NCBI GenBank assembly: GCA_947303945.1
Contig: CAMYZS010000009.1
Span: 1-59,030, forward strand
Reading direction: 5' to 3'
Origin: an uncultured Candidatus Saccharibacteria bacterium
Lineage (GTDB): Bacteria; Patescibacteriota; Saccharimonadia; Saccharimonadales; Saccharimonadaceae
Length of the DNA stretch: 59,030 nucleotides
Shown here piece by piece: positions 723 to 22,486 of the stretch (its first letter is position 1; each line of letters starts with the position of its first letter). Under the pieces are notes generated by a model. The model was not told where the DNA came from, made no database searches, and was given only the letters and a program-made list of their open reading frames with translations. A program made the position numbers and the translations under genes.

Positions 723-3700
723 TTAGCTTTCTTTCTCTAGATAACGTTTGCCAACTACTAAGCTACCAATCAAGCCGATTAACGAAACGCTAAGCATCAC
801 TACCGAAGTCACAACACTATCATTAGTTACAGGCGGTTCAGGCGGAATATAACCTTTACCTGGCTTATTGTATTTATTGGTGAACACCACATCACTACTC
901 GTATCTGAACTTACCTTTAGCTCACCTTCACCATCATCTTCAACCTCAACCACGAAAGTATACTCGTTCTCATCATAAGCAATATCTTGTTCGCGATCCG
1001 CAACATCCTCTTTAATTACAAAGCTATACATACCCGCCTCATCGAACGTGATACCATTATTAAGCACGATTTCTCCGTTCGCCATATTGTAGCCAGTAGC
1101 GACCAACTCGTTGCCGAGATAGATATTAAACTTAAACTCCTTATCTTTCAGAACACGATTTTCAAGCACCTTTTTAACCGCAATCGGGACTTCACATTCT
1201 GGGCAACCATAAATCACCTCTTCTGGCTTATAGCTGTTCTCAAAGATAATCGCTCCCACATCTTCGCCGTTCTTATGATAACTTACCTCGGCTTCTAGTT
1301 TCGCATCATTATCACTCACCCTAACCGTAATAATATACTCAGATTCATCGTAGACATAGCCCTTTGCATCATCTTTAACTTCCTTAACGGTATAAGTATA
1401 TTCATCGGCTTTGTCGAATTTAATCTCATTAAACTCAGCCTTGCCAGAGCCCTTAATCTTAACAACTTGAATTATGCCATTCTTATCTGAAAGAATAAAT
1501 TCAAATTCCTTCGCAAGGTTCTGATCGATGCCGCTCAGGATTTTTTCAAAATCAATCTTCGTCGAAGTCGCTTCAGCCCTGTAATCATTCTCAAATTCAA
1601 CTTCATTAATTTCTTTGCCGTCAATCGTCACTTTCGCAACTAGTTGCGCCTGCTCATAATCATCGGTAACCTCTATTACTACCTTGTGTTTAGTGTCGTC
1701 ATAGCTAAAACCAGCCTGCCCATCGTCTATCTCAACGAGTGTGTATTCGTAAGTGCCAGCTTTATCAAACTTAATCGAATCAAAGTCAACCGAACCAGCT
1801 AGCTCTTTTGTAGTAATCTCCTTAGTCTGCACAACTACATTCTTATCATCGCGAAGCTCAAACTTAAATGTCGCATCTTTCTTACTATTGCTCTGATCGT
1901 TAATCTTCTTCTTTACTGTAAATGGCTTGATAACCTCGACTGGCTTCGCCTTGTAAGTATTCGTAATCGTACCATTATTTGAATAATCCGCCTTGAAAGC
2001 TAAGTTGCCATTTTTGTCATCAGTAACCGTTAAGTTTACATCGATATCTTCCGACTTAGATAAACCACTTGGCATCGTGTCAGTTTCAGTAATCGTATAT
2101 TTATGCTCGCCAACGTCAGCCTGCGTAAATTTGAGCTTCTTAAAGCTAACTGCAGTATGATCTCTATCTACGATTTGCGTATCAACGACGTTACCGTCTT
2201 TATCTTCCAATACAAAATTGTAACTTTCGCCACTCTGCCAGTTACGCCCCTCAAGGACCTTAGTCGCCTCAAAGCCAAATTCACCTTCAGCGGAATAGGT
2301 ATTAACAATCGTATTATACTTCTCACCCTGACCGCCGCTATAGACGACTGTAGTTTTCAAAGTACCGTCATGATTATCATCAACCGTAACCGTAGCAGTA
2401 ACATCGCCAGAATTCGTAATACCACCAGGCAATGGAGTGCTCTCATGAATTGTATAGACAAAAGTCTTACCCGCATCTTCAAGCGTATAGCTAATTTCGC
2501 TATAAACTACATCCGATTGAGCTTTACTGACGCTTTTACTCTTAATCTCAACACCATCTTCGCCCATAAGTGTGAAATTATAGAGCTCACCCTCTTGCCA
2601 ATCACGACCAGTCAAAATCTTGCTTGCGCCAAGCTGAATCTTACCAGTTGCGGAATAACGGTTCACAATCGTATTTAGTTTTTCACCTTCACCACCTTGA
2701 TAAGCAACATTAAAGTTCAAACCACCTTCGCCGTTATCGGTTGCAGTTACGGAAGCGGTAATATTACCACTAGTTTGTTTAATACCGCCACGCACACTTG
2801 AAGCTTGAAGGTCTTCGGTAATCATATATTCAAAAGTGCCAGTACTGTTAATCGGAACTTCAAATTCAGCCTTCTTATCTGCGCCATCTATCGTCGCAGT
2901 CATCGAATCAGCAATGCCATCACCGCTCAATTTAAAGACGAATTTATCGCCCGTACGCCAATCATTAAAATCTTTCTTAACCTCAATCTTTACCTTACCA
3001 CTCACACTGTAAGTATTCGTAAAGGCAGCCGTCGAAGTTGTATCTTCTGCTATCGTGCCAGTGTCACCAGTCTTAGTAGTCGTAAAACCAGCAGCTTCCG
3101 TCTCGACGACTTCATAATACGCCCCTACCGGCAAATCAAGGATAGTTAGCGATTCACCATCTTTCAATCTTACCGTTCCGCCAGACTTAATCGTATTAGT
3201 GCTACCATCAATTTTATAGCTACCAGCCAACTCTGAAGTCTTATTTGCATTAGCATAAAGTCTAACCGTAAAGATGAACTCTTTATTTTTTACAGTAGTT
3301 GCGTTACCGCTTTGGACTACAACATTCTTCGTAAGCTTCAAATTACCAGAAGTATAATTATTTACTACCGTTACTAAAGAAGCGGAATTGCCAGCTACGG
3401 CGTAATAATCTTTACCATCAATCGTCTTAGCGGCTTTGTCGTCTTTTGCATTTTCACCACCATAAGCAATCTGATATTCAACATCTTTCAAAGAGTAACC
3501 AACTGGAACGTCGCTTTCCTCAACGTGGTAAAGCGTACCAGTGTTCATATTGACAACACGAATTATGTCATCCGTCGAAATTGCTCTCTCAATTATACCG
3601 CTACCATAAATGTGCGCCGAACGATACCCAGTCACATTACCGCTGCTATCTTTTAATTCTTGGTTACAATCGTCATGTGCTTTTGAACAATAGACGCGAT

Positions 3701-5918
3701 AATCGTAGTTATAATCGCTGTTGTCATCTGGATTCTTCAAATAAGCTATTATGGTAAACTTATCATCCGTATTAGATACTTCGTTGCCAGCCTTATCGAC
3801 AATCTTCTTCTGAATATTAACACCACCCTTGATAGTATTCGTAGCCGATATGGCCGACATTTCCTTAGCCGATTCTACACCAGTAAAAGTATTACCAGAG
3901 CGCGTAAATGCAACGTTCATTAAAGTACCATCCACCAACATTGGATGATAAATATAGTTCGTTAATTCAAAGTGATTATTAATATCAGCTTCGCCAAACT
4001 TATAATCGTGGCCTGGATTCAAGATAGAGTATCTCTTGCCATTCATTACCACAACGCCATACGGCGAATTCTCATCAAAGGCGGGGCGCCCTTCACTCAC
4101 CATCAAGCCCGGCGCAATCGCAATCTTACCAGAGCTCCAGGTAGTGCTGCCAGCTACCTTTTTAACCTTAATGCCGCCCTTGCTAGCATCATAATTCTCA
4201 TGGAACTGATCATATTCTTGATACTCAGTTTGGCTAAAATCTTTCTTATAGAACTGAAGGTAAATATCTTGCACTTCAGTGTTATCCTCGCGTTGACTTG
4301 GATCAAGCGAATCCTCCCAAAGCTTCTGCAACTCCGCTTCTTCCTGGTACAGATCGACCGGATCAGGGTTCTTAATCTTCACAGTTTGCGGATCAGAAAC
4401 TACCGTCTCGGTTTGGCCGTTAGTTGTAGTCGTCGTCACCGTTTTATAAGTCAAGGTCGGATAATCAGTGTTAGTTTTAAGCGTATATTTATCGCCGCTC
4501 TTCAAAATCTGCGCTTTTTGATCGGCAGTCAAATCATCATAAGCCATCACACCGTTATTGAGATCAGCAATCAAATCCAATGATGCCTGACTTGGGTAAA
4601 CGATAAAGCTCACTGTTGCAGTTTCGCCATCAGACAGCACCGTATTGCCAAGATCCCAAGTTACGGTCCCGTTTTCAAACTTCGCCGCTGGCGCATCTGC
4701 CCAGTTATTTCCACCCTTAGTATAAGTAAAGCCGCCAGCCGTGCCCTCAATTGCTACCGAGGTCATGCCAGTAATGCCATCATTAAAGATTAACCCCGTT
4801 AAAGAAAGACTATTCGTAATAGACTTCACAATATCGTCAAAGGCCGCCTCAAGCGCTTGCTGGTTTGTTGCATCTTTATAAATTGCCTTAGAATTCAAGT
4901 TCTGCATATTGGTTGCATCGCCGAACACACCTACCGTATATAGCGTCTTGCCGGCATTCACAATCGTACTTGCAACCGCCTGCGCATCGGACATATTCCA
5001 GCCATTTGGGTCACTATTACCGGAGCCATGGACACCAGATGGTGTTGGCGGATTTGCAGTTGAACTTCTATCGTCAGAATCAGAACAGCTCCAGCCAGTA
5101 CAGTGCTTCGTGTTACGAAAAGTCGGGTTACCATCCGATACAAAGATTACATATGTCGGATCAGTATCGCCGAAATTAACATTGTTCGCTGCCGTCAAAG
5201 CCGCTTCCCAGTTCGTACCGCCATCAATACCATCTTTTGGTTGCGCAGCCCCAACCCAACTACTAAAAGTATCTTTGCTCGTCGTTGGAGTTGTATGAGT
5301 CGTAGAGCTATTTACTTGTGTGGAGAAATCAATGAAGGCAATCTGAACCATATCGTTCACGCCCGTCGTGGTGTTGTAATTTAGGAGTTTATTTCCAAGT
5401 GACTTCAATGCCACCTCGGCTACACTAGCACGAGTCTTCGTAGTATTCGTATTGCTCGTATAACGTGGGCCGCTATAAGAACCATATGAATTGCCAGAAC
5501 GATAATACAAATTGGTCGTATATGTGCTCTGGTTGTTGATCTCTGAACAGCTGTTCACATTGTTATTTGTACAATGGTACAGCTGTACATAACTATTATT
5601 GGTGACGTTATAGCCATAGCGACCAAGCTCTGAACTTGGTTCTGGATACTTCATACTACCAGACGTATCGTAAATCACCACGATATTAGCCTTAGTATTT
5701 TGCGTCGCCGATGATGCCTTTCCTGTAACACTCAAAGTAAGCGTATAGGTGCCATCACCATTATCCTTTAATGTTTTACTACGTACCGGCGCGCCCTCTG
5801 GATCGACGTCGTCGTCAGCATACGCACTGCGGACAAAACCGTTCCCCAGCGGCGTAATTACACTCGCGACCATCAAAAACGAAGCTGCGAAATATTTTAA
5901 TTTGCGTTTGAAGTTCAC
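723..5918 (-). CDS. Giant cell-surface protein: vWA domain plus repeated pilin-type (Spy0128-like) domains
   Basis: A secreted, wall- or membrane-anchored adhesin of about 1731 aa. The start is taken as GTG at 5918, because AAGGAG lies 8 nt upstream; an in-frame GTG at 5927 would sit 1 nt from that site. A signal peptide (about residues 1-35, ending SAYA) is followed by a von Willebrand A domain (about 79-370) with the MIDAS motif DTSGS (D84, S86, S88), GGTNW and SDG. A middle region (about 590-850) contains a cysteine pair (YCSK/DDC). Then come seven tandem domains beginning with motifs such as ATKVLEGRNWQ or VKKKI and ending YTI.E, resembling Spy0128/FctA-type isopeptide pilin domains. The C-terminus has a proline-rich PPEPPVTND, a hydrophobic helix and a charged tail: the layout of a sortase signal, but with PPVTN in place of LPxTG. 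It probably contacts other cells. No ligand is known. Confidence 0.9.
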   Translation of the reverse strand: MNFKRKLKYFAASFLMVASVITPLGNGFVRSAYADDDVDPEGAPVRSKTLKDNGDGTYTLTLSVTGKASSATQNTKANIVVIYDTSGSMKYPEPSSELGRYGYNVTNNSYVQLYHCTNNNVNSCSEINNQSTYTTNLYYRSGNSYGSYSGPRYTSNTNTTKTRASVAEVALKSLGNKLLNYNTTTGVNDMVQIAFIDFSTQVNSSTTHTTPTTSKDTFSSWVGAAQPKDGIDGGTNWEAALTAANNVNFGDTDPTYVIFVSDGNPTFRNTKHCTGWSCSDSDDRSSTANPPTPSGVHGSGNSDPNGWNMSDAQAVASTIVNAGKTLYTVGVFGDATNMQNLNSKAIYKDATNQQALEAAFDDIVKSITNSLSLTGLIFNDGITGMTSVAIEGTAGGFTYTKGGNNWADAPAAKFENGTVTWDLGNTVLSDGETATVSFIVYPSQASLDLIADLNNGVMAYDDLTADQKAQILKSGDKYTLKTNTDYPTLTYKTVTTTTTNGQTETVVSDPQTVKIKNPDPVDLYQEEAELQKLWEDSLDPSQREDNTEVQDIYLQFYKKDFSQTEYQEYDQFHENYDASKGGIKVKKVAGSTTWSSGKIAIAPGLMVSEGRPAFDENSPYGVVVMNGKRYSILNPGHDYKFGEADINNHFELTNYIYHPMLVDGTLMNVAFTRSGNTFTGVESAKEMSAISATNTIKGGVNIQKKIVDKAGNEVSNTDDKFTIIAYLKNPDDNSDYNYDYRVYCSKAHDDCNQELKDSSGNVTGYRSAHIYGSGIIERAISTDDIIRVVNMNTGTLYHVEESDVPVGYSLKDVEYQIAYGGENAKDDKAAKTIDGKDYYAVAGNSASLVTVVNNYTSGNLKLTKNVVVQSGNATTVKNKEFIFTVRLYANANKTSELAGSYKIDGSTNTIKSGGTVRLKDGESLTILDLPVGAYYEVVETEAAGFTTTKTGDTGTIAEDTTSTAAFTNTYSVSGKVKIEVKKDFNDWRTGDKFVFKLSGDGIADSMTATIDGADKKAEFEVPINSTGTFEYMITEDLQASSVRGGIKQTSGNITASVTATDNGEGGLNFNVAYQGGEGEKLNTIVNRYSATGKIQLGASKILTGRDWQEGELYNFTLMGEDGVEIKSKSVSKAQSDVVYSEISYTLEDAGKTFVYTIHESTPLPGGITNSGDVTATVTVDDNHDGTLKTTVVYSGGQGEKYNTIVNTYSAEGEFGFEATKVLEGRNWQSGESYNFVLEDKDGNVVDTQIVDRDHTAVSFKKLKFTQADVGEHKYTITETDTMPSGLSKSEDIDVNLTVTDDKNGNLAFKADYSNNGTITNTYKAKPVEVIKPFTVKKKINDQSNSKKDATFKFELRDDKNVVVQTKEITTKELAGSVDFDSIKFDKAGTYEYTLVEIDDGQAGFSYDDTKHKVVIEVTDDYEQAQLVAKVTIDGKEINEVEFENDYRAEATSTKIDFEKILSGIDQNLAKEFEFILSDKNGIIQVVKIKGSGKAEFNEIKFDKADEYTYTVKEVKDDAKGYVYDESEYIITVRVSDNDAKLEAEVSYHKNGEDVGAIIFENSYKPEEVIYGCPECEVPIAVKKVLENRVLKDKEFKFNIYLGNELVATGYNMANGEIVLNNGITFDEAGMYSFVIKEDVADREQDIAYDENEYTFVVEVEDDGEGELKVSSDTSSDVVFTNKYNKPGKGYIPPEPPVTNDSVVTSVVMLSVSLIGLIGSLVVGKRYLEKES

Positions 5919-14311: not shown

Positions 14312-15131
14312 AGAATGGCCACAATGTCGCGCATCCCGCCATGGCGCCCATAATTGGATTCACATATAAAAGATAGAATGCAATCCCGTTCCTAATCATG
14401 TGCATCAGGATGCCCGCATAAATGGTACCCGTCAATTCGCGCGCAATGCACATAAAGACACTCATTATGCAAACTATTACACCTACATTCCATTGCCCAT
14501 GCAAAACCCCAAATAAAACCGATACTAAAATAATTGCCGGTACAGCACTCAACTTTGTCCGTAATCTACCATAAAGAAAGCCGCGGAATATTAGCTCTTC
14601 AGTAATCGGAGCCACCACAACCAATGCAATGAAAGTAATAATACGATCCGCAGAAGTATATATCGAATTAAAACCAACATCCTGCGCCTGAGTCCAGTCC
14701 ACATCCCTTATTACAGCCTGCAAAACCATTATTACGAAAGCTCCCGCCACCGTCGAAACAATATATCCAATCGGCGACAACAGTATATCCGTCCAAGTTG
14801 GCAGCCCATTCAAACCTAAGCTATCTCGCACCACTATTACTTTAAATATTTTTCTCGAGACTAATACCGCCACAACTATTGCAACGGAATTCGATATCGC
14901 AACACAAACCGTTTGCGCTGCATTTATATTAACTTCCCAGTTAGTCACATCAATCAGCCACTGCGCGATACAAGCAACCACAAGCTGCGACATATAAAAG
15001 ATTACGCCCGTCCATACTGTTAATAATAGTGCCCAAACAACTATCGCCCACTTGCGATATGTACGGTCTTTCTTACAACGCTCTCTTACTATATTTAGCC
15101 TTTTATCTAGCCATGTTTTCTTCTTATTCAT
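14304..15131 (-). CDS. CPBP family intramembrane glutamic endopeptidase (CAAX/Abi type)
   Basis: A 275-aa multi-pass membrane protein with the family's catalytic motifs: EELIFRGFLYGRLR (motif 1), a His in LFGVLHGQWN (motif 2) and HMIRN (motif 3). In bacteria such proteases act in prenyl-peptide processing, bacteriocin self-immunity or surface-protein handling. Which one applies here is not shown. It is coupled to the upstream rseP gene (they meet at 15131), an arrangement of two membrane proteases. Confidence 0.88.
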   Translation of the reverse strand: MNKKKTWLDKRLNIVRERCKKDRTYRKWAIVVWALLLTVWTGVIFYMSQLVVACIAQWLIDVTNWEVNINAAQTVCVAISNSVAIVVAVLVSRKIFKVIVVRDSLGLNGLPTWTDILLSPIGYIVSTVAGAFVIMVLQAVIRDVDWTQAQDVGFNSIYTSADRIITFIALVVVAPITEELIFRGFLYGRLRTKLSAVPAIILVSVLFGVLHGQWNVGVIVCIMSVFMCIARELTGTIYAGILMHMIRNGIAFYLLYVNPIMGAMAGCATLWPFLV

Positions 15132-16345
15132 CAGAATAACCTCAAGATATCAATTACAGTCACAATAGCCGCCAATACCAAAATCGCCACAAAAGCCCGT
15201 CCTACAATTTTCTCTTCTTTCTCTTTTGTTAACTTTTTCTTCCTTAGTCTATAAATTGCAATCAAAAGCCATCTACCACCATCTAAGGCCGGAATCGGTA
15301 ATACATTCATGCAGGCTAGAGAAATCGAAATCAAAGCTACCAAAAATCCCAAATTATTTAATCCGCTCGCCGCAAAAGCCGGAAAGAGTACCCCAATAAT
15401 CCCAACTGGACCACTTACGGAGTCGCCAGCACTCTTAATTGCTTCTGCTCCGCTTACTCGTACCGCCTCGCTAGGATTAATTTGTTGTACGATGCCACTC
15501 AATAAGTTATACAGCAACATCCCTACCCCTTTAAATGTCTCACCCGTAATCTGCGCCGTTGTCATGAAACCAACTATCGGCGCGCTCCACGAGCTCACAT
15601 AATATGCGCTACCAGTAATACTTGCACCAAGCAAATAAGCTGCGCTAGAGTCATTTAGCTCAACTTCCGAAATCATCTCGTTTTCATTTCGTTCGAAAGT
15701 TAAGTACACCAAACCGCCAGCGTGGCGTTTATTAAAGGCTAGTAAATCTTCAGTCGTAACAATATCTATTCGCTCCGAATTCTCATCTACGGCCCTAGCA
15801 GACTTAATTATGTCACCATCCTTTAAACCAGCCGTACTCGCTGGGCTACCATCAATTACCTCGCTGATTATTACGGGTTTTTCTACAGCTATTTCCGTAT
15901 CGCTATCAATCGTAAATTGACCATCTAAGAAATGCGGCATGCCCACCCAGGCCAATATCGTGAGTAACACAAAGGCTACTAGCCAGTTCATTGCTACACC
16001 GCCAAACAAAATCTTGGTTTTACGCCAAAAGCTCGCCGCACCAAAGCTACCTTTCTCAGTATCAGCATCGCTTTCGCCTTTCATCTGGCAAAAGCCACCA
16101 ATCGGCAACCAGTTTAGCGAGATTATCGTGCCCTTCCCTGGCGCTTTCTTCCATTCACGTTTTTTCAGTCGGCGCCACTTACCGTTCACTTTTCGCCAAG
16201 CAATTATTCGTGGCGGAAAACCGATTCCAAATTCTTCAACATCAACCCCGTTGCGACGCGCCATGATAAAATGCCCAAACTCGTGCGCCGTGACGAGAAA
16301 CATCAACATTAATATTCCAATTATTATTCCTATTACCACACTCAT
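15131..16345 (-). CDS. rseP: RseP-type site-2 zinc metalloprotease (M50)
   Basis: A 404-aa membrane protease cleaving transmembrane segments, typically of anti-sigma factors or signal peptides. The zinc motif HEFGH is in the first helix (TAHEFGHFIMAR), a PDZ domain covers about residues 165-250 (VIDGSPASTAGLKDGDII), and the LDG motif is in PIPALDGGRWLL. There is no clear Shine-Dalgarno; a TATAGT-like -10 lies about 7 nt before the ATG. The CPBP protease gene follows directly. No anti-sigma/sigma pair is visible nearby. Confidence 0.93.
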   Translation of the reverse strand: MSVVIGIIIGILMLMFLVTAHEFGHFIMARRNGVDVEEFGIGFPPRIIAWRKVNGKWRRLKKREWKKAPGKGTIISLNWLPIGGFCQMKGESDADTEKGSFGAASFWRKTKILFGGVAMNWLVAFVLLTILAWVGMPHFLDGQFTIDSDTEIAVEKPVIISEVIDGSPASTAGLKDGDIIKSARAVDENSERIDIVTTEDLLAFNKRHAGGLVYLTFERNENEMISEVELNDSSAAYLLGASITGSAYYVSSWSAPIVGFMTTAQITGETFKGVGMLLYNLLSGIVQQINPSEAVRVSGAEAIKSAGDSVSGPVGIIGVLFPAFAASGLNNLGFLVALISISLACMNVLPIPALDGGRWLLIAIYRLRKKKLTKEKEEKIVGRAFVAILVLAAIVTVIDILRLF

Positions 16346-16388
16346 ACTAATAACTATAATAACACACCATGAGCTTTTTCAGACGGTA

Positions 16389-18431
16389 TTATGGCTCATT
16401 CTGCTCATAATATAAAGTCTGATAAATGACACTACCTATTACCGCCGTACCGTTCATCTTCGTCGCACCCTCTTCAGCTGTTATTAATGCTTCGTTATTA
16501 ATGGCGGCCGTCTTACCTTGCAAAATGCCATCATAGAACTCAATTGCCGCAGTGGTATTCACACCATAAGTTGCACCACGAATAATTGGCGTAGAGTTAG
16601 AAATTCCTCCACCATGTACACCGATCACCAAGGTGCCAGATTCGTTCTTTACACCTTCTTGTTTGTTAGAGATGATCGTACCGCCAGTAATCACGACCGA
16701 TCCATTATTCAAGTTATGTACCGTTGCGCGCTGCGACGAAGAGCCGGTGCTCAAATATGCATTACCACTGATTACTAAGCTACCACCATTATTGTAGACC
16801 GCCTGCTTCGAGCCAGTCGCTACAATTCTCGCACCATTTTGAATATCTAATTCAGCTCCAGACTCATTATTGATCACACCTTCGGCTAGCGATGACGTAA
16901 TTGTGCCATTAATAATAGTTAATTTACCCTTATTGTCTATCACCCTATTACCGACGACGGAATTTTCCCCACCATTATCGCTAAACGTATAGCCATTCAA
17001 ATCTAATGTTATCTCTACGCCCGCATCAACCAGGACGTGATCTTTGATGTTGTCGAGCAAGGTAATCGTATCGCCCGCGCCCGCCTCGTCAATGCAATCT
17101 TGCAATAATGGATAAGTGGTTCCGCTTACGCCTACGCTACAAATATCGTTATTTTCGCGCCAGTTCGCATATAGAGTCATATCTTGGCTAATAATTGATT
17201 CTTCCGTGATTCTCTGTCCAGCGCCATCTTGCTCCGTATACCAGCCGCCAAAGTATTTGCGGCCACTATCCGTTTCAACGCTGTTCGGCATATCCGGCAA
17301 CAGACTACCAATTTTGGCGGAGCCAATCACTGTTACGTCATTTGGGTCGTCCACGACACCGCCAGCATTGAACGACACCGTATGTCTATTTGCACCCGTT
17401 TCACCTAATTTAATATATAAATTAGATAGAGTAGCGTCCAAATAACGTTTTGGCGCACCGTCAGCCCTCTCGGACGCGCCAAACCATACTGTAGTATCGA
17501 AGTAATCAGATGTATTATTTATATCCTGCAAAACCATAAACGGCTCGTCGTTGAACGAATAGTAAACCACACCGTCAACTCTTGCGACCACTACCTTAGT
17601 GGCGGTGGCGGCACTATGGGTTCCAGTCTTTTTCTCATGCGTGTTATTTTTCTTAATGGTCTGAACTATTTCAATATTATTATTGCCTCTGCGTATAGCT
17701 AAGCCCGGCCAGTGTCGGCTACTATCTTCAAATTTTGCATTCACGAATGTCGACTGAGTGGCATCATCTTCATCTATAACCGAATCATGGAACTGACGGC
17801 TCGGATCGTACACAAGTATTGTAAAACCTATTTCATAGTCTTTATTGTAGTTCTCTTCACTATATAGTTTTATACCCGTATCGATATAACGATGCGTACC
17901 ATCCGCCCAGTTAGTACCATTCACGATACAGTTATTGCCAGTTATATATCCGTCGCCGCCATGCTGAATATCGTAGCCATGAAAAACACATACGCCATCC
18001 ATCTCAAATTCAGTATGCATCTCATTATCCGGCTCAGCCTCTACCCACTGCGCATACAAATCATATACGGCACCATTATCCACGTCCAAGTTCATCGACG
18101 CGCTATCCGCATAGTCTACGCCCATATCGGAAGCTCTTGAGTCCCAGTGATCAAACTCATAACCCGCACGCACAAAAGCATTTGGGGTTAGTGTTTGAGC
18201 CTCGCCATAATAAAATAGCTGGTCCTCCATCGTACCTTGTACTGGATCGTCGCCAGCATTTGCATGGAACCGCACGTAATAATGTGCTTTTTCGACACTT
18301 AACTTTATCGTGGCCGTAGTTGTTGTTGAATATTTCGCATAAACCCGCTCAGGCAAAATTATCCCAATTGCTACCGCCATCAAAAATACAAAGATTGAAG
18401 TGCTAATTGTAAACAAACGACGCTTCATCAT
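16389..18431 (-). CDS. Secreted adhesin with InlB-type repeats and beta-helix region, last gene of TasA-like operon
   Basis: A 680-aa secreted protein. The signal peptide ends VYAKYSTTTT, the same VYAKY junction as the TasA-like protein at 20375. Order: an InlB/Listeria-Bacteroides-type repeat (about 50-110, AGYEFDHWDSR), a lectin/LamG-like region (about 120-340), a second InlB-type repeat (about 350-430, KYFGGWYTEQDGAG), then a right-handed beta-helix-like region (about 440-660) with repeated turns such as LDLNGYTF, ELDIQNGARI and SVVITGGTI. No sortase motif or C-terminal helix is seen, so attachment may be through the fibre. It overlaps the upstream gene by ATGA. The product is inferred to be a fibre-associated adhesin. 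Confidence 0.82.
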   Translation of the reverse strand: MMKRRLFTISTSIFVFLMAVAIGIILPERVYAKYSTTTTATIKLSVEKAHYYVRFHANAGDDPVQGTMEDQLFYYGEAQTLTPNAFVRAGYEFDHWDSRASDMGVDYADSASMNLDVDNGAVYDLYAQWVEAEPDNEMHTEFEMDGVCVFHGYDIQHGGDGYITGNNCIVNGTNWADGTHRYIDTGIKLYSEENYNKDYEIGFTILVYDPSRQFHDSVIDEDDATQSTFVNAKFEDSSRHWPGLAIRRGNNNIEIVQTIKKNNTHEKKTGTHSAATATKVVVARVDGVVYYSFNDEPFMVLQDINNTSDYFDTTVWFGASERADGAPKRYLDATLSNLYIKLGETGANRHTVSFNAGGVVDDPNDVTVIGSAKIGSLLPDMPNSVETDSGRKYFGGWYTEQDGAGQRITEESIISQDMTLYANWRENNDICSVGVSGTTYPLLQDCIDEAGAGDTITLLDNIKDHVLVDAGVEITLDLNGYTFSDNGGENSVVGNRVIDNKGKLTIINGTITSSLAEGVINNESGAELDIQNGARIVATGSKQAVYNNGGSLVISGNAYLSTGSSSQRATVHNLNNGSVVITGGTIISNKQEGVKNESGTLVIGVHGGGISNSTPIIRGATYGVNTTAAIEFYDGILQGKTAAINNEALITAEEGATKMNGTAVIGSVIYQTLYYEQNEP

Positions 18432-18949
18432 CGCGGATCCTTCTGTGCAAATACTACTTCGACCGAAACATTATGGTTTACTGTTGCTTCCGCCGATAAT
18501 TTTGCAACAAATTCTATCGTATGATTCCTATTTCTGTGCGGACCAAGTTCTTTTCCCGTATTCTCCAAAATAATAACGCCACTACTATTTGGATTCTTAT
18601 AATTCCCGCCTTCATCCAATCTAGCCATTACGCCAGTTGGGACCCCCGTCAATTTAATCGTATACTTGCTCGCCGTATCCGAATCGTTCGTAACCGTCAG
18701 ATTGAAAACCTGTTGACGCTCCTCGTCCTCATTTCCAGCAATCACGCCAACTTTATCATCATTACTCTGTTCCGACGTACCGGCAATCCCGACATCCCAT
18801 TCTGCTACTAAGGTAGAAGTATTCTTAGTTATATCTTCTCGTAGCATCATCTTTGCTACCACAAAAGAGCCCGCAATCAGCGGAATGCCAGCATAAAGCA
18901 TCGCGAAGAATACGACTCGTCTTACCGAAATTCGCCTCTTGCTTGCCAT
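18428..18949 (-). CDS. TasA/camelysin-like secreted protein, 173 aa
   Basis: A basic N-terminus (KRRISVRR) precedes one hydrophobic helix (about 13-32, ending VVAKMMLRE) and an extracellular beta-rich domain with AEWDVGIAG, FNLTVTNDSDTASKYTIKLTG and HTIEFVAKLSAE. The pattern of a signal peptide, an Ala/Glu-x-Trp strand and an 'unordered tails' beta sandwich matches TasA/CalY-type fibre proteins, but similarity is weak by eye. It sits 2 nt after the previous gene and overlaps the following one, so it is co-translated with two other secreted proteins. Confidence 0.75.
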   Translation of the reverse strand: MASKRRISVRRVVFFAMLYAGIPLIAGSFVVAKMMLREDITKNTSTLVAEWDVGIAGTSEQSNDDKVGVIAGNEDEERQQVFNLTVTNDSDTASKYTIKLTGVPTGVMARLDEGGNYKNPNSSGVIILENTGKELGPHRNRNHTIEFVAKLSAEATVNHNVSVEVVFAQKDPR

Positions 18950-18951
18950 CT

Positions 18952-19719
18952 CTACACTTCCTCAAAGTTTATTTTGACGCCCAACCTATAATCAGTCGCA
19001 TTCTTACCAGCCTTTGTATCTGCGGCATCTACGCCGCCATCATACGGCCAATTCCAATCAAGCGTATAACTATCCACTTTATCATTTTGCAATAATTTCA
19101 GTGCCGAAGCTAACTCTTTTGCCTTCACCCACTGTGTATCGCTACCGACTATATATTCCCCACCGCGCTTCAAGCGATAAAGCATATTCACAGCGTACTG
19201 CGAGTCGTCCTCAAACTCTATACTATAACGGATCGCATTGTTAGTCCCGTTATGGACTTTGAAGTTATAAGAGTTCGATACTCCTGGCGCAATTTTATCC
19301 TTATATTGAAATGCTGCATTCTGAAAAATTTTTAAGCTCTTTTGGTAGACATACCAACCATTAGTATCGTCAACGTAAACTATACCATCCTCATCAACGT
19401 CAGTATCGGTTTTCCCATTTATTGTTTTCTCGGAATAACCATTCGTTCCATTAGAACCGCTGTAACCGTTAGATCCAGGTGAAGTACCCGGGATAAAACC
19501 ATCTTTGTCTTCTTTATCAGGATCGCAATCTTCGCCATTCTTGCCTTTGCAAATACATCCAATTCGAATATCGAACACATCAACATTGCCAGTCTCTATC
19601 TCATCCGGCTCTGGCGTAGGCTTCAATAAAAGTGATAGCAAAAATATAATTACCACTAACAATACAGCGGAAACAACCGCTAAGCCACGATTATAACTTC
19701 TTTTTTCTCCACTCTCCAT
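18952..19719 (-). CDS. TasA-like membrane-anchored protein with Gly-rich spacer and W-x-WPY domain
   Basis: A 255-aa protein with one N-terminal membrane helix (about 11-32), an acidic/cysteine segment (IGCICKGKNGEDC) and a short collagen-like Gly-rich spacer (about 73-95, GSNGYSGSNGTNGY). A domain shared with the TasA-like protein at 20375 follows: KDKIAPGVSNSYNFKVHN matches its GKIAPGTKGTCNIELSN, and TLDWNWPYDGG...DAADT matches its SINWEWPYETDEG...DAADT. It therefore belongs to the same fibre family. AAAGGAG lies 5 nt before the ATG, and a hairpin-rich 80-bp gap separates it from the upstream subunit gene. Confidence 0.82.
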   Translation of the reverse strand: MESGEKRSYNRGLAVVSAVLLVVIIFLLSLLLKPTPEPDEIETGNVDVFDIRIGCICKGKNGEDCDPDKEDKDGFIPGTSPGSNGYSGSNGTNGYSEKTINGKTDTDVDEDGIVYVDDTNGWYVYQKSLKIFQNAAFQYKDKIAPGVSNSYNFKVHNGTNNAIRYSIEFEDDSQYAVNMLYRLKRGGEYIVGSDTQWVKAKELASALKLLQNDKVDSYTLDWNWPYDGGVDAADTKAGKNATDYRLGVKINFEEV

Positions 19720-19721
19720 TT

Positions 19722-19799
19722 TTCTCCTTTAGCCCCCACGCAGACAATCAATTTATTCATTGCCTACGTGGAGGCTAAACCTCCACGATAATTTGTTTA
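19722..19799 (-). promoter_or_regulatory. Stem-loops between the first two TasA-like genes
   Basis: The gap contains a perfect 8-bp stem CGTGGAGG / CCTCCACG, and then an imperfect longer stem CACGTAGGCAAT / ATTGATTGTCTGCGTG just before the next ribosome site. Neither has a T-run, so they are more likely to stabilise the first cistron or hold back ribosomes than to terminate. This is inferred. Confidence 0.6.
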
Positions 19800-20375
19800 T
19801 TAATTTGAAGGTTTGGTCTGTACACCAGTAACGTCAAAAATAACTTTCATCTCACTAGTGCCAGTAGTGGCATTACCTGCCGCAGTCCTACCATCAATAG
19901 TATCAGCAGCGTCGCCCGCACCCTCGTCAGTCTCATATGGCCATTCCCAGTTAATTGAAACGGTCTTAGTATCGCCAATCTTTAACTTGCCCGTAATTTC
20001 TCCATCCGCAGCCAATGCATTGCCTTTATATTTAAACTTCAAATTTTGCGGACCGCTTACCTCTTTAACCGTAATTGTATAATCTACGCCAACTTCGCTA
20101 GTATTATTTGATAGCTCAATATTACAAGTGCCCTTTGTGCCAGGCGCAATCTTACCCTCAGCTACAGTTTTAGTATATGTCTTGCTGAGATCGCAAGACA
20201 GCGTCTTTGTCTCGTTCTCTTCCTTAAATGCCCACTTTGCCACCTCAATGGATGCAGTCTTATCTGTAATGCTAGCAATGTACTTCGCGTAAACCGCAGC
20301 AGCCAAGCCTAAAACGGCAACTCCCATTACGACAAACGCAACAACGAGCGCAGTCCTAGTCCTTCTTTTACTCAT
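19800..20375 (-). CDS. TasA/CotN-like fibre subunit
   Basis: A 191-aa secreted protein and first gene of the fibre operon. The start is set at ATG 20375 because GGAGGT lies 6 nt upstream; a longer frame begins at 20411 without a site. The N-terminus has KRRTRT, a hydrophobic helix and the cleavage region AAVYAKYIAS. The mature part begins with a strand ASIEVAKWAF, has two cysteines (SCDLSK and TCNIEL) that could form a disulphide, IAPGTKG, and the C-terminal WEWPYETDEG...DAADT followed by a strand KVIFDV. These match the TasA/camelysin family, whose members assemble into biofilm fibres after cleavage by a SipW-type peptidase. That peptidase is not in this window. Confidence 0.85.
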   Translation of the reverse strand: MSKRRTRTALVVAFVVMGVAVLGLAAAVYAKYIASITDKTASIEVAKWAFKEENETKTLSCDLSKTYTKTVAEGKIAPGTKGTCNIELSNNTSEVGVDYTITVKEVSGPQNLKFKYKGNALAADGEITGKLKIGDTKTVSINWEWPYETDEGAGDAADTIDGRTAAGNATTGTSEMKVIFDVTGVQTKPSN

Positions 20376-20428
20376 GTTTTTACCTCCATTGACTCCACCT
20401 CGCGAAGTCATTAATTTTTATGCTTTTT

Positions 20429-20437
20429 ATTATAGCA
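20429..20437 (-). promoter_or_regulatory. Extended -10 promoter of the TasA-like operon
   Basis: Minus-strand TGC TATAAT within CTTATGCTATAAT. The leader is about 47 nt and includes GGAGGT. It directly follows the rplU terminator, so the operon is transcribed separately from rplU. Confidence 0.75.
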
Positions 20438-20450
20438 TAAGCACGCACCA

Positions 20451-20476
20451 AAAAACTCCCATTTTTGGGAGTTTTT
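20451..20476. terminator. Terminator of rplU
   Basis: AAAAACTCCC / GGGAGTTTTTT stem and T-run, nearly symmetrical so it could work both ways. Lies 3 bp beyond rplU. Confidence 0.88.
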
Positions 20477-20478
20477 TA

Positions 20479-20935: not shown

Positions 20936-22486
20936 TTATTTTTTCTTACCGTGTTTGATTCCTTCTTGAATCTCGGCAACTTCTTTTTGGCTACGATACC
21001 AATAGCTAACACCAGTCATTACGCATACGGCGGCCACTATCGCTAATGCAATTTCGCCTGGCCCCGTATTTGGAAGTATCGGTGCTGGAGTTGGTTCTTT
21101 TTTACACTGCGGCAAGTCCTTGTATTCGTCCTTATCACAGCACTCAGTCTTAATCGAGCCATCTTCGTTTTTGCACGGATCTTCTTCCTTACATTGTGGA
21201 AGATCTTTATATTCATCCCGATCGCAACATTCAGGCTTTACTGAGCCATCTTCGTTTTTACATTCATCCTCAACTTTACATTCTGGCTCATCTTTATATT
21301 CCGGTTTATCGCAACATTCAGGTTTTACTGAGCCATCTTCGTTTTTACATGGATCCTTCTTTGGCTCCTCTGGCTCTTCGCAAGTTTTCTCGACTTTTAT
21401 TGTCGCCGTAGCCGTCGAAGTACCAGTCTGATCAGTCACGGTAGTAATCGTGTTCTTAAAGGAATTCGTACCACAATCGCCATCTTTTACAATATCACTA
21501 TTCACTTTTACTTTATAAGTCAAAGTGCCCGTCACGCCTTCCCCAAATAGACCAGTATTAATGCCATTCGCGACAATCGCATCACTCAAAGTGCGTGTCT
21601 TTTTAGAGCCAGAATCATAAAGAGTTACACTACCAGGGACCAAAGTAACACCAGTTGGAAGCTTATCACGAAAAGTCACATTTGTAAGAACTTTAGAGCC
21701 GCTGTTTTTGAAGGTAATCTTATATGTAACCGTATCGCCAGGCTTCGCCGTTACGCTACTAAAGAAGTTTGTGCCATCCAATGAAGCGCTCTTCGAAACT
21801 GACGAACTTGCCTGCTCGGCACGTACATGATATATGATATGACCAGAATATTCACTACAACCCGGAATAACACCATTAAACTTATTGTAGCCAATATACA
21901 GACCTTCATTAAATAATTGGGTCCCCAAAAGCTCGCCTTTTAGCTTACCTTGATTTATAATCTTCGCTGTCGCATTTACATACTTGAGCTCAATATCCGT
22001 CTTTGAGTCGGTCGTAAAATACGCCTCATCCCAAACTGATTCCGGCGAAGCTGTATCGGACGAAATAGTCGCACTAATCTTACCCTTACTCGAAGAGTTA
22101 ATTTTTGTAGAAAAGCTACTGCGAACTTTCGTCTTCATCGCGATACCTTTTCCGCCATTAGTCGTGTTTGTCTCCGTAGCGGCATTGTTATGATAGAAGA
22201 TGTACACCTCATAGGTCTTACCAGGAGTAACCTTGATTTCGTTGACATATTTGCCATTTCCGCCCACCTCAGTCACACGCACAAAGTCGCGCTCGTCGCC
22301 GATAATATTATTATCGGTAATCGAGTTGAAGGTGGCGTGATCTGCCGGCTTTTTCATCGTATATGTTGGGCGATCTGGACCCCACGCATACGATGACGCG
22401 GCTGGCACCAGCACGGACAATGCCAATGCCGACAATCCCGCAATCATCAGTCTCCGCTTAAAGTTAATATTCGTTTGTTTTTGCAT
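20936..22486 (-). CDS. LPNTG sortase-anchored surface protein with DUF11 domain and Cys-rich repeats
   Basis: A 516-aa wall-anchored protein. The signal peptide (about 1-34) ends SSYA. An N-terminal beta region (about 40-230) is followed by a DUF11-type domain (about 235-350: KPGDTVTYKITFKNSGS, FRDKLPTGVTLVPGSV). Three copies of a 25-27-aa repeat, C-KNEDGSVKPECCD-EYKD-PQC, follow, each with four cysteines including a CC pair. The sorting signal LPNTG, a hydrophobic helix and a basic tail (HGKKK) end the protein. It has a good AAGGAG. The Cys repeats could form a disulphide-stiffened stalk, as is inferred for similar surface proteins. No sortase gene lies in the window. Confidence 0.92.
   Translation of the reverse strand: MQKQTNINFKRRLMIAGLSALALSVLVPAASSYAWGPDRPTYTMKKPADHATFNSITDNNIIGDERDFVRVTEVGGNGKYVNEIKVTPGKTYEVYIFYHNNAATETNTTNGGKGIAMKTKVRSSFSTKINSSSKGKISATISSDTASPESVWDEAYFTTDSKTDIELKYVNATAKIINQGKLKGELLGTQLFNEGLYIGYNKFNGVIPGCSEYSGHIIYHVRAEQASSSVSKSASLDGTNFFSSVTAKPGDTVTYKITFKNSGSKVLTNVTFRDKLPTGVTLVPGSVTLYDSGSKKTRTLSDAIVANGINTGLFGEGVTGTLTYKVKVNSDIVKDGDCGTNSFKNTITTVTDQTGTSTATATIKVEKTCEEPEEPKKDPCKNEDGSVKPECCDKPEYKDEPECKVEDECKNEDGSVKPECCDRDEYKDLPQCKEEDPCKNEDGSIKTECCDKDEYKDLPQCKKEPTPAPILPNTGPGEIALAIVAAVCVMTGVSYWYRSQKEVAEIQEGIKHGKKK

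Follow-up and report, generated by a model that had tools for sequence, protein, structure and literature searches.

Known fibre systems and the A-D operon

In the fibres formed by TasA, the N-terminal strand of each subunit completes the next subunit (PMC9674648, PMC10151520). TapA can give such a strand but cannot take one, and can therefore only start a filament (PMC9674648, PMC10151520); it has been reported to be a membrane-associated filament initiator (PMC10151520). The tapA-sipW-tasA operon of Bacillus and the sipW-calY operon of B. cereus encode beta-sandwich subunits that carry signal peptides, and in the Bacillus TasA/TapA/SipW system the gene for SipW lies inside the operon. A similar logic of tip, shaft and base is found in the chaperone-usher pili (Csu, Fim, Pap).

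Here we describe a four-gene operon, A-B-C-D, from a member of the Saccharibacteria, a group of tiny bacteria presumed to live on other bacteria. Its subunits match those of the two Bacillus systems in size, in their signal peptides and in their beta-sandwich character, and its relatives in the Bacillota also carry SipW inside the operon, whereas the Saccharibacterial operon has none. Gene D encodes a minor protein which, much like TapA, is predicted to be able to give a strand and not to take one. Compared with the TasA and CalY systems, the operon has in addition a membrane-anchored protein (B), lectin and beta-helix parts in D, and an RNA element at the junction of A and B. Chaperone-usher pilins are the best listed matches of the A model, but the operon encodes neither chaperone nor usher and has no sequence relation to those systems. 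An outer membrane is, moreover, not expected in Saccharibacteria.

The same genome has two small islands (L002 and L003, on contigs C4 and C28 of G000) that encode pilin-like, signal-peptidase-like and sortase-like proteins. These sortase-type pilus islands also represent surface polymers, each with its own signal-peptidase-like gene, but they have isopeptide-type pilins and sortases, whereas the A-D operon contains neither a sortase gene nor an LPxTG motif. In the peptidase-like proteins of both islands the usual catalytic lysine seems to be missing, as it is in the chaperone-like peptidases of pilus islands.

Layout of the locus

The window, by which we mean the whole stretch of 59,030 nucleotides analysed, comes from a genome of 1.29 Mb whose named genus-mates are rumen 'Candidatus Saccharibacteria', in keeping with the CPR-type genome that a first-pass annotation had recognized from the letters. 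The operon occupies positions 16389-20411 on the minus strand as four ORFs, between what we take, from sequence and general knowledge, to be rplU (L21; 20479-20790) and the gene of an M50-type membrane protease (15131-16345). Genes A and B are separated by 80 nt and B and C by 2 nt, and C and D overlap in an ATGA, exactly as first described.

Gene A (19800..20411, minus strand), the candidate major fibre subunit, encodes a signal peptide with the predicted site VYA↓KY (the arrow marks the cut), a donor-type N-terminus and a pilin-like domain; the ATG at 20375, preceded by a GGAGG Shine-Dalgarno site, is the better start. Gene B (18952..19719, minus strand) encodes an uncleaved hydrophobic segment, a Cys-containing linker and an acceptor-type domain, and is a probable membrane-anchored base. 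Gene C (18428..18949, minus strand), the putative minor shaft subunit, has a signal segment with the site A↓KM followed by a VA-x-W segment. Gene D (16389..18431, minus strand), the probable tip adhesin, combines the site VYA↓KY with a donor-type strand and InlB-type repeats. An extended -10 element, TGcTATAAT, can be read on the minus strand at 20429..20437, between A and the terminator-like hairpin of rplU (20450-20477). It has no good -35 and is missing from the consensus scan, and is a putative promoter-like site only.

Homology, family and fold of the subunits

Genes A, B and C are homologous. With profiles built from Saccharibacterial and Bacillota members, hhalign aligned A with B at E 5e-14 and A with C at E 2e-13, each with a probability of 98%, and a profile of A alone recovered B (E 1e-5 to 2e-9) in genomes that carry the operon. 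B aligns to A solely from the KIAPG motif onward and has no A-like N-terminal segment, and C aligns to the signal and the first half of A. For D the similarity to A is confined to the signal and the N-terminus and is weak when taken alone (probability 48%). The motifs to which the first-pass annotation had drawn attention, namely KIAPG and W-x-WPY...DAADT in both A and B and VYAKY in both A and D, are all present and go beyond a chance resemblance, the A-B relation now having the backing of hhalign, and C does follow A in its arrangement of signal and beta-domain. The proposal of a fibre-type operon with homologous subunits is supported, and the fibre is likely as a mechanism.

Membership of the TasA/Peptidase_M73 family, which had been suggested at the same time, did not survive profile comparison. 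None of A, B, C and D matches PF12389 (Peptidase_M73) at E values up to 5, and seven Bacillota relatives fall below the cut-off of the same model; hhalign with B. subtilis TasA gave a probability of <1%. No TasA/M73 match was returned by Pfam, NCBIfam or PHROGs, and none of the family libraries gives A, B or C a name. A sequence search of the PDB with A gave no match. Bridging profiles were sought among TasA relatives on plasmids, where there were none, and among camelysins in 195 genomes of the phylum of a Bacillota relative, where one weak match yielded no such profile. The searches with Pfam, NCBIfam, PHROGs and hhalign thus do not put A into the TasA/M73 family, and on these comparisons filing the operon under the TasA family is not justified.

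The model of mature A has a pLDDT of 73.7, with residues 1-21 below 50, such that the N-terminal 21 residues are unplaced. Among 50 matches listed, it is nearest to donor-strand pilins (Csu, the pilin domain of PapG, FimG; Z 6-7), at middling scores (Z of 7 or less, Foldseek E of 0.003 or more). TasA is absent among those 50, which does not exclude TasA; in Foldseek the TasA fibre structure 8aur_A matched weakly (query TM 0.40, E 0.03, probability 0.80), its query TM-score being the highest among the matches listed. Residues 31 and 54 of mature A (window 19803-20285, minus strand) are cysteines that are invariant in Saccharibacterial A and missing from the aligned Bacillota A; with this distribution, a disulfide was possibly gained after transfer between the phyla.

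A shared N-terminus, predicted to be processed

Of 117 ORFs with a hydrophobic segment at the N-terminus, in loci from 15 genomes, 42 have an [AS][KR][YM] motif near the end of that segment. Every one of these is A, C or D, the motif being absent from the other secreted proteins of the loci compared. Most A and D proteins have A-x-A↓K-Y as the predicted site, and C has x-x-A↓K-M, so that A, C and D appear to share a processed N-terminus, [AS]-K-Y/M. Beyond the site the segment continues into [VI]A-x-W in A and C, and in D it passes, over about 17 residues, into the InlB-type repeat. The hydrophobic segment of B has no cleavage motif.

Gene D as a probable adhesin

Gene D scored 49 bits against Flg_new (PF09479, the Listeria-Bacteroides/InlB B-repeat; cut-off 27) and matched the InlB structure 2y5p at E 9.5e-5. 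Its model (pLDDT 82.7, residues 1-13 disordered) contains a lectin-like domain of the CBM40/laminin-G type (mature residues 104-341, Z about 12.6) as well as a beta-helix (400-647, Z 14.9). Together with the shared N-terminus, this modelled body supports the adhesin originally proposed, and D is probably a lectin/beta-helix adhesin forming the sugar-binding end of the fibre. Many receptor-binding domains of neurotoxins appear in the Foldseek list for D. Since the laminin-G/ConA-like lectin fold that such domains share is a common one, and D contains no toxin domain, we set aside a relation to neurotoxins.

Signal peptidases

The genome encodes a canonical LepB (on C5) and a SipW-like Ser-His peptidase (on C31; 96 bits against TIGR02228, cut-off 51.85), the latter in a different operon from A-D. 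A SipW elsewhere in the genome, for which the first-pass annotation had advised looking, was found, and SipW genes do lie inside the Bacillota operons, in support of the link to SipW; the dependence on SipW that it implied is not supported for the Saccharibacteria, where the operon has no SipW gene and the two do not track each other. Over 37 genomes of the genus SipW is present in 9/12 operon carriers versus 16/25 non-carriers, which amounts to no association, and G025 and G003, two near-complete genomes with the operon, have no SipW match at E 1e-5. Since the operon is without SipW and two carriers are without a detected one, ordinary signal peptidase I probably suffices here. The A-x-A↓K-Y and x-x-A↓K-M sites are, by their sequence, cuttable by this enzyme in principle. 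A literature search for both Saccharibacteria and SipW returned nothing, and papers naming both TasA and Saccharibacteria were off topic by title.

The C31 gene belongs to a second SipW module (L033, positions 2827-5599 of that locus, minus strand), which comprises a small secreted protein (P0006), a long SipW (P0005) whose N-terminus is extended by a multi-span part, and a membrane protein (P0007). In the rumen bin RUG357 (L107), genes of the P0006-P0005-P0007 type occur in this order a little upstream of A-B-SipW-C-D on the same contig.

Distribution and origin of the operon

Within the genus, 15 of 45 genomes carry the operon, and one further locus (L103) brings the number of genomes to 16; the A-B-C-D order is kept in all 16 where the contig allows. 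In a phylum sample of 380 genomes it was found only in this genus, apart from one weak match without the operon; this candidate distant carrier, G357 (A-profile E 0.005), contains none of the operon families and was rejected. Thirteen of the 16 operons lie at the rplU/M50 site, and three (G003, G012, L103) lie elsewhere. The site is empty in G066, G018, G030 and G063, and in G029 and G032 it holds a single large repeat protein. In G027 a scar (L184, 6460-6700, contig C1) retains rplU, the RNA element, the first codons of B and the M50 protease, with 19/22 RNA pairs kept and a weaker fold; as the RNA and the first B codons persist, the operon was once present there and has since been lost.

The rplU/M50 site (window 16346-20478; also L166 and L170) thus forms a small hot spot where surface genes are found. 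The large repeat protein found at it has DTSNVTDM-type repeats and lectin/InlB parts resembling those of D. At 20936-22486 (minus strand) lies the gene of a DUF11-repeat surface protein with a C-terminal LPNTG sortase-type motif, which is kept upstream of rplU whether the fibre operon is present or absent.

Outside the Saccharibacteria, A turned up in our collection scan both in gut Bacillota and in bins labelled 'Tenericutes', the closest at 38-43% identity. The Bacillota gene order is [SipW]-A-B-SipW-C-D in L104, L107, L109 and L135; the operons of L108 and L111 appear incomplete in the available stretch, L102 is without B, and several Clostridia loci have A-SipW pairs. Contact with a host cell, as proposed by the first-pass annotation, is a candidate role; because the same operon is found in gut Bacillota, it is not a CPR-specific device for such contact. 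In a midpoint-rooted tree of A, the Saccharibacterial sequences group in a single clade (100/98) that branches with gut Bacilli, and Clostridia lie outside (98/93); transfer is not resolved in the tree of B. Given the A tree and the narrow range within Saccharibacteria, the simplest reading is a transfer that most likely brought the operon from gut Bacilli into the Saccharibacteria.

A conserved RNA element at the A-B junction

The gap between A and B contains a two-state RNA element (19721..19802, minus strand), recognized by fold and covariation, with a folding energy of -35.6 kcal/mol (z -7.9). Three arms on the minus strand, arm1 (19780-19787), arm2 (19756-19779) and arm3 (19728-19751), form two mutually exclusive hairpins, since arm1 and arm3 both pair with arm2. 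Hairpin 2 (arm2 with arm3) is a long helix of 22 bp, found in Saccharibacteria and Bacillota, that stops one base short of B's Shine-Dalgarno GGAG (19724-19727); hairpin 1 joins arm1 with arm2. The whole layout recurs in the Saccharibacterial operons and, with a differing sequence, in Bacillota operons. In an alignment of 25 sequences 94.5% of hairpin 2 cells are paired and 16/22 pairs have changed on both sides, whereas shifting the columns by one to three lowers pairing to 51.5% or less. In a comparison with shuffled upstream sequence, the 21 sequences tested favoured hairpin 1 (single fractions from 0 to 0.08), with a combined p of 2e-26 that is not a strict probability, the sequences being related.

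A covariance model built from 21 sequences matched next to A in two Clostridia loci outside its training set, L126 (E 3e-7) and L137 (E 7e-4), and in L137 the element sits between A and B. Among 61 related genomes it is restricted to the A-B junction of 12 operon carriers and to the G027 scar. Rfam cis-regulatory families likewise include conserved intergenic hairpins, but in Rfam 15 no family reaches its gathering score, and the gap searched by itself gives matches at chance level. The element is, on well-supported grounds, a new conserved structured RNA, previously unlisted and outside any Rfam family. It is not an intrinsic terminator after A: neither hairpin has a U-run on the sense strand, and a T-run match falls on the opposite strand.

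The element probably sets the stoichiometry of A to B, perhaps through RNase III, which the genome encodes, and would keep A in excess over B. In the scheme that we put forward, RNase III would most likely cut the long helix of hairpin 2, separating the B-C-D mRNA from that of A; after the cut, arm1 and arm2 would remain attached to the A mRNA, where hairpin 1 could refold as a protective 3' hairpin. Cutting followed by refolding would explain the two-state design, though we hold the RNase III step itself as tentative. A strong competing possibility, which we put somewhat short of even chances, is that the element is not a processing site, and works as a translational on/off switch for B or is an inverted repeat at the DNA level. 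The switch version, in which hairpin 2 would hide B's ribosome site and hairpin 1 would free it, is the main rival to RNA processing; it draws on the single base that separates hairpin 2 from GGAG in the window and on the mutual exclusion of the two helices. A DNA inverted repeat would likewise show paired changes, but on the sense strand G-U pairs outnumber A-C mismatches by 62 versus 17 (p 4e-7 by cell, 0.02 by column), which favours RNA as the conserved molecule and speaks against a reading in DNA alone.

A model for the fibre

We consider it reasonably probable, from the combined analysis, that A, B, C and D encode an extracellular fibre assembled by TasA/TapA-like donor-strand exchange. 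The division into tip, shaft and base derives from sequence comparisons. A (major), C (minor) and D would be exported and cut before K-Y/M, freeing an N-terminal strand, and A and C would make up the shaft, with the pilin-like domain accepting the strand of a neighbour. D, with a strand and no acceptor domain, could by the logic of TapA only start a fibre, and would sit at no place but the starting end; its lectin and beta-helix would make it a tip adhesin. B, which combines an acceptor domain with an uncleaved membrane anchor and lacks both a free strand and an N-terminal segment like that of A, would end the chain at the cell surface. The first-pass annotation had regarded B as a minor subunit with a Gly-rich spacer; the spacer is present here and poorly conserved among relatives, and B is better read as a membrane-anchored base. 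Were the fibre to grow at the membrane, D would be carried to the tip, a polarity (D at the tip, B at the base) to which we give roughly even chances. After acquisition by the Saccharibacteria, the SipW peptidases of the operon would have been lost and ordinary signal peptidase I used.

It is also conceivable, if rather unlikely, that nothing polymerises, A, C and D being separate secreted or surface proteins and B a membrane protein, with the shared N-terminus serving as an export signal only and the Ig-like domains binding D or a surface polymer. The missing TasA family match and the middling fold scores of A are in line with such an arrangement. Beyond the cleavage site, however, the K-Y/M N-terminus continues as a conserved strand segment and VA-x-W, the low-confidence N-terminus of A and its matches to donor-strand pilins fit a strand awaiting a partner, and SipW genes in the Bacillota operons fit known TasA-type systems. 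Still less probable in our view is the same fibre turned around, with D at a cell-proximal starting end as a nucleator that holds the fibre to a surface polymer. TapA, a strand donor only and a membrane-associated initiator (PMC10151520), offers a precedent, and the terminal beta-helix of D could bind a cell-surface polymer; against this, the uncleaved anchor and acceptor-type domain of B fit the base better than D does, and D has lectin-like and InlB-type modules.

Significance

The strongest new facts are the conserved RNA between A and B and an operon that spans two phyla and includes SipW in the Bacillota. The full proposal, that an RNA shared by both phyla sets the ratio of subunits in a donor-strand fibre by cutting and refolding, in a module transferred from gut Bacillota that then lost its signal peptidase, we advance only tentatively. 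We know of few attachment tools in Saccharibacteria, and the A-D operon is a candidate adhesive fibre whose polarity may be read from the parts that each subunit has. It is a complete surface-fibre module common to Saccharibacteria and gut Bacillota, and has most likely moved between the phyla. If the RNA does set stoichiometry, it would bear on how shaft subunits can be made in large numbers, and anchors and tips in small numbers, from one operon.
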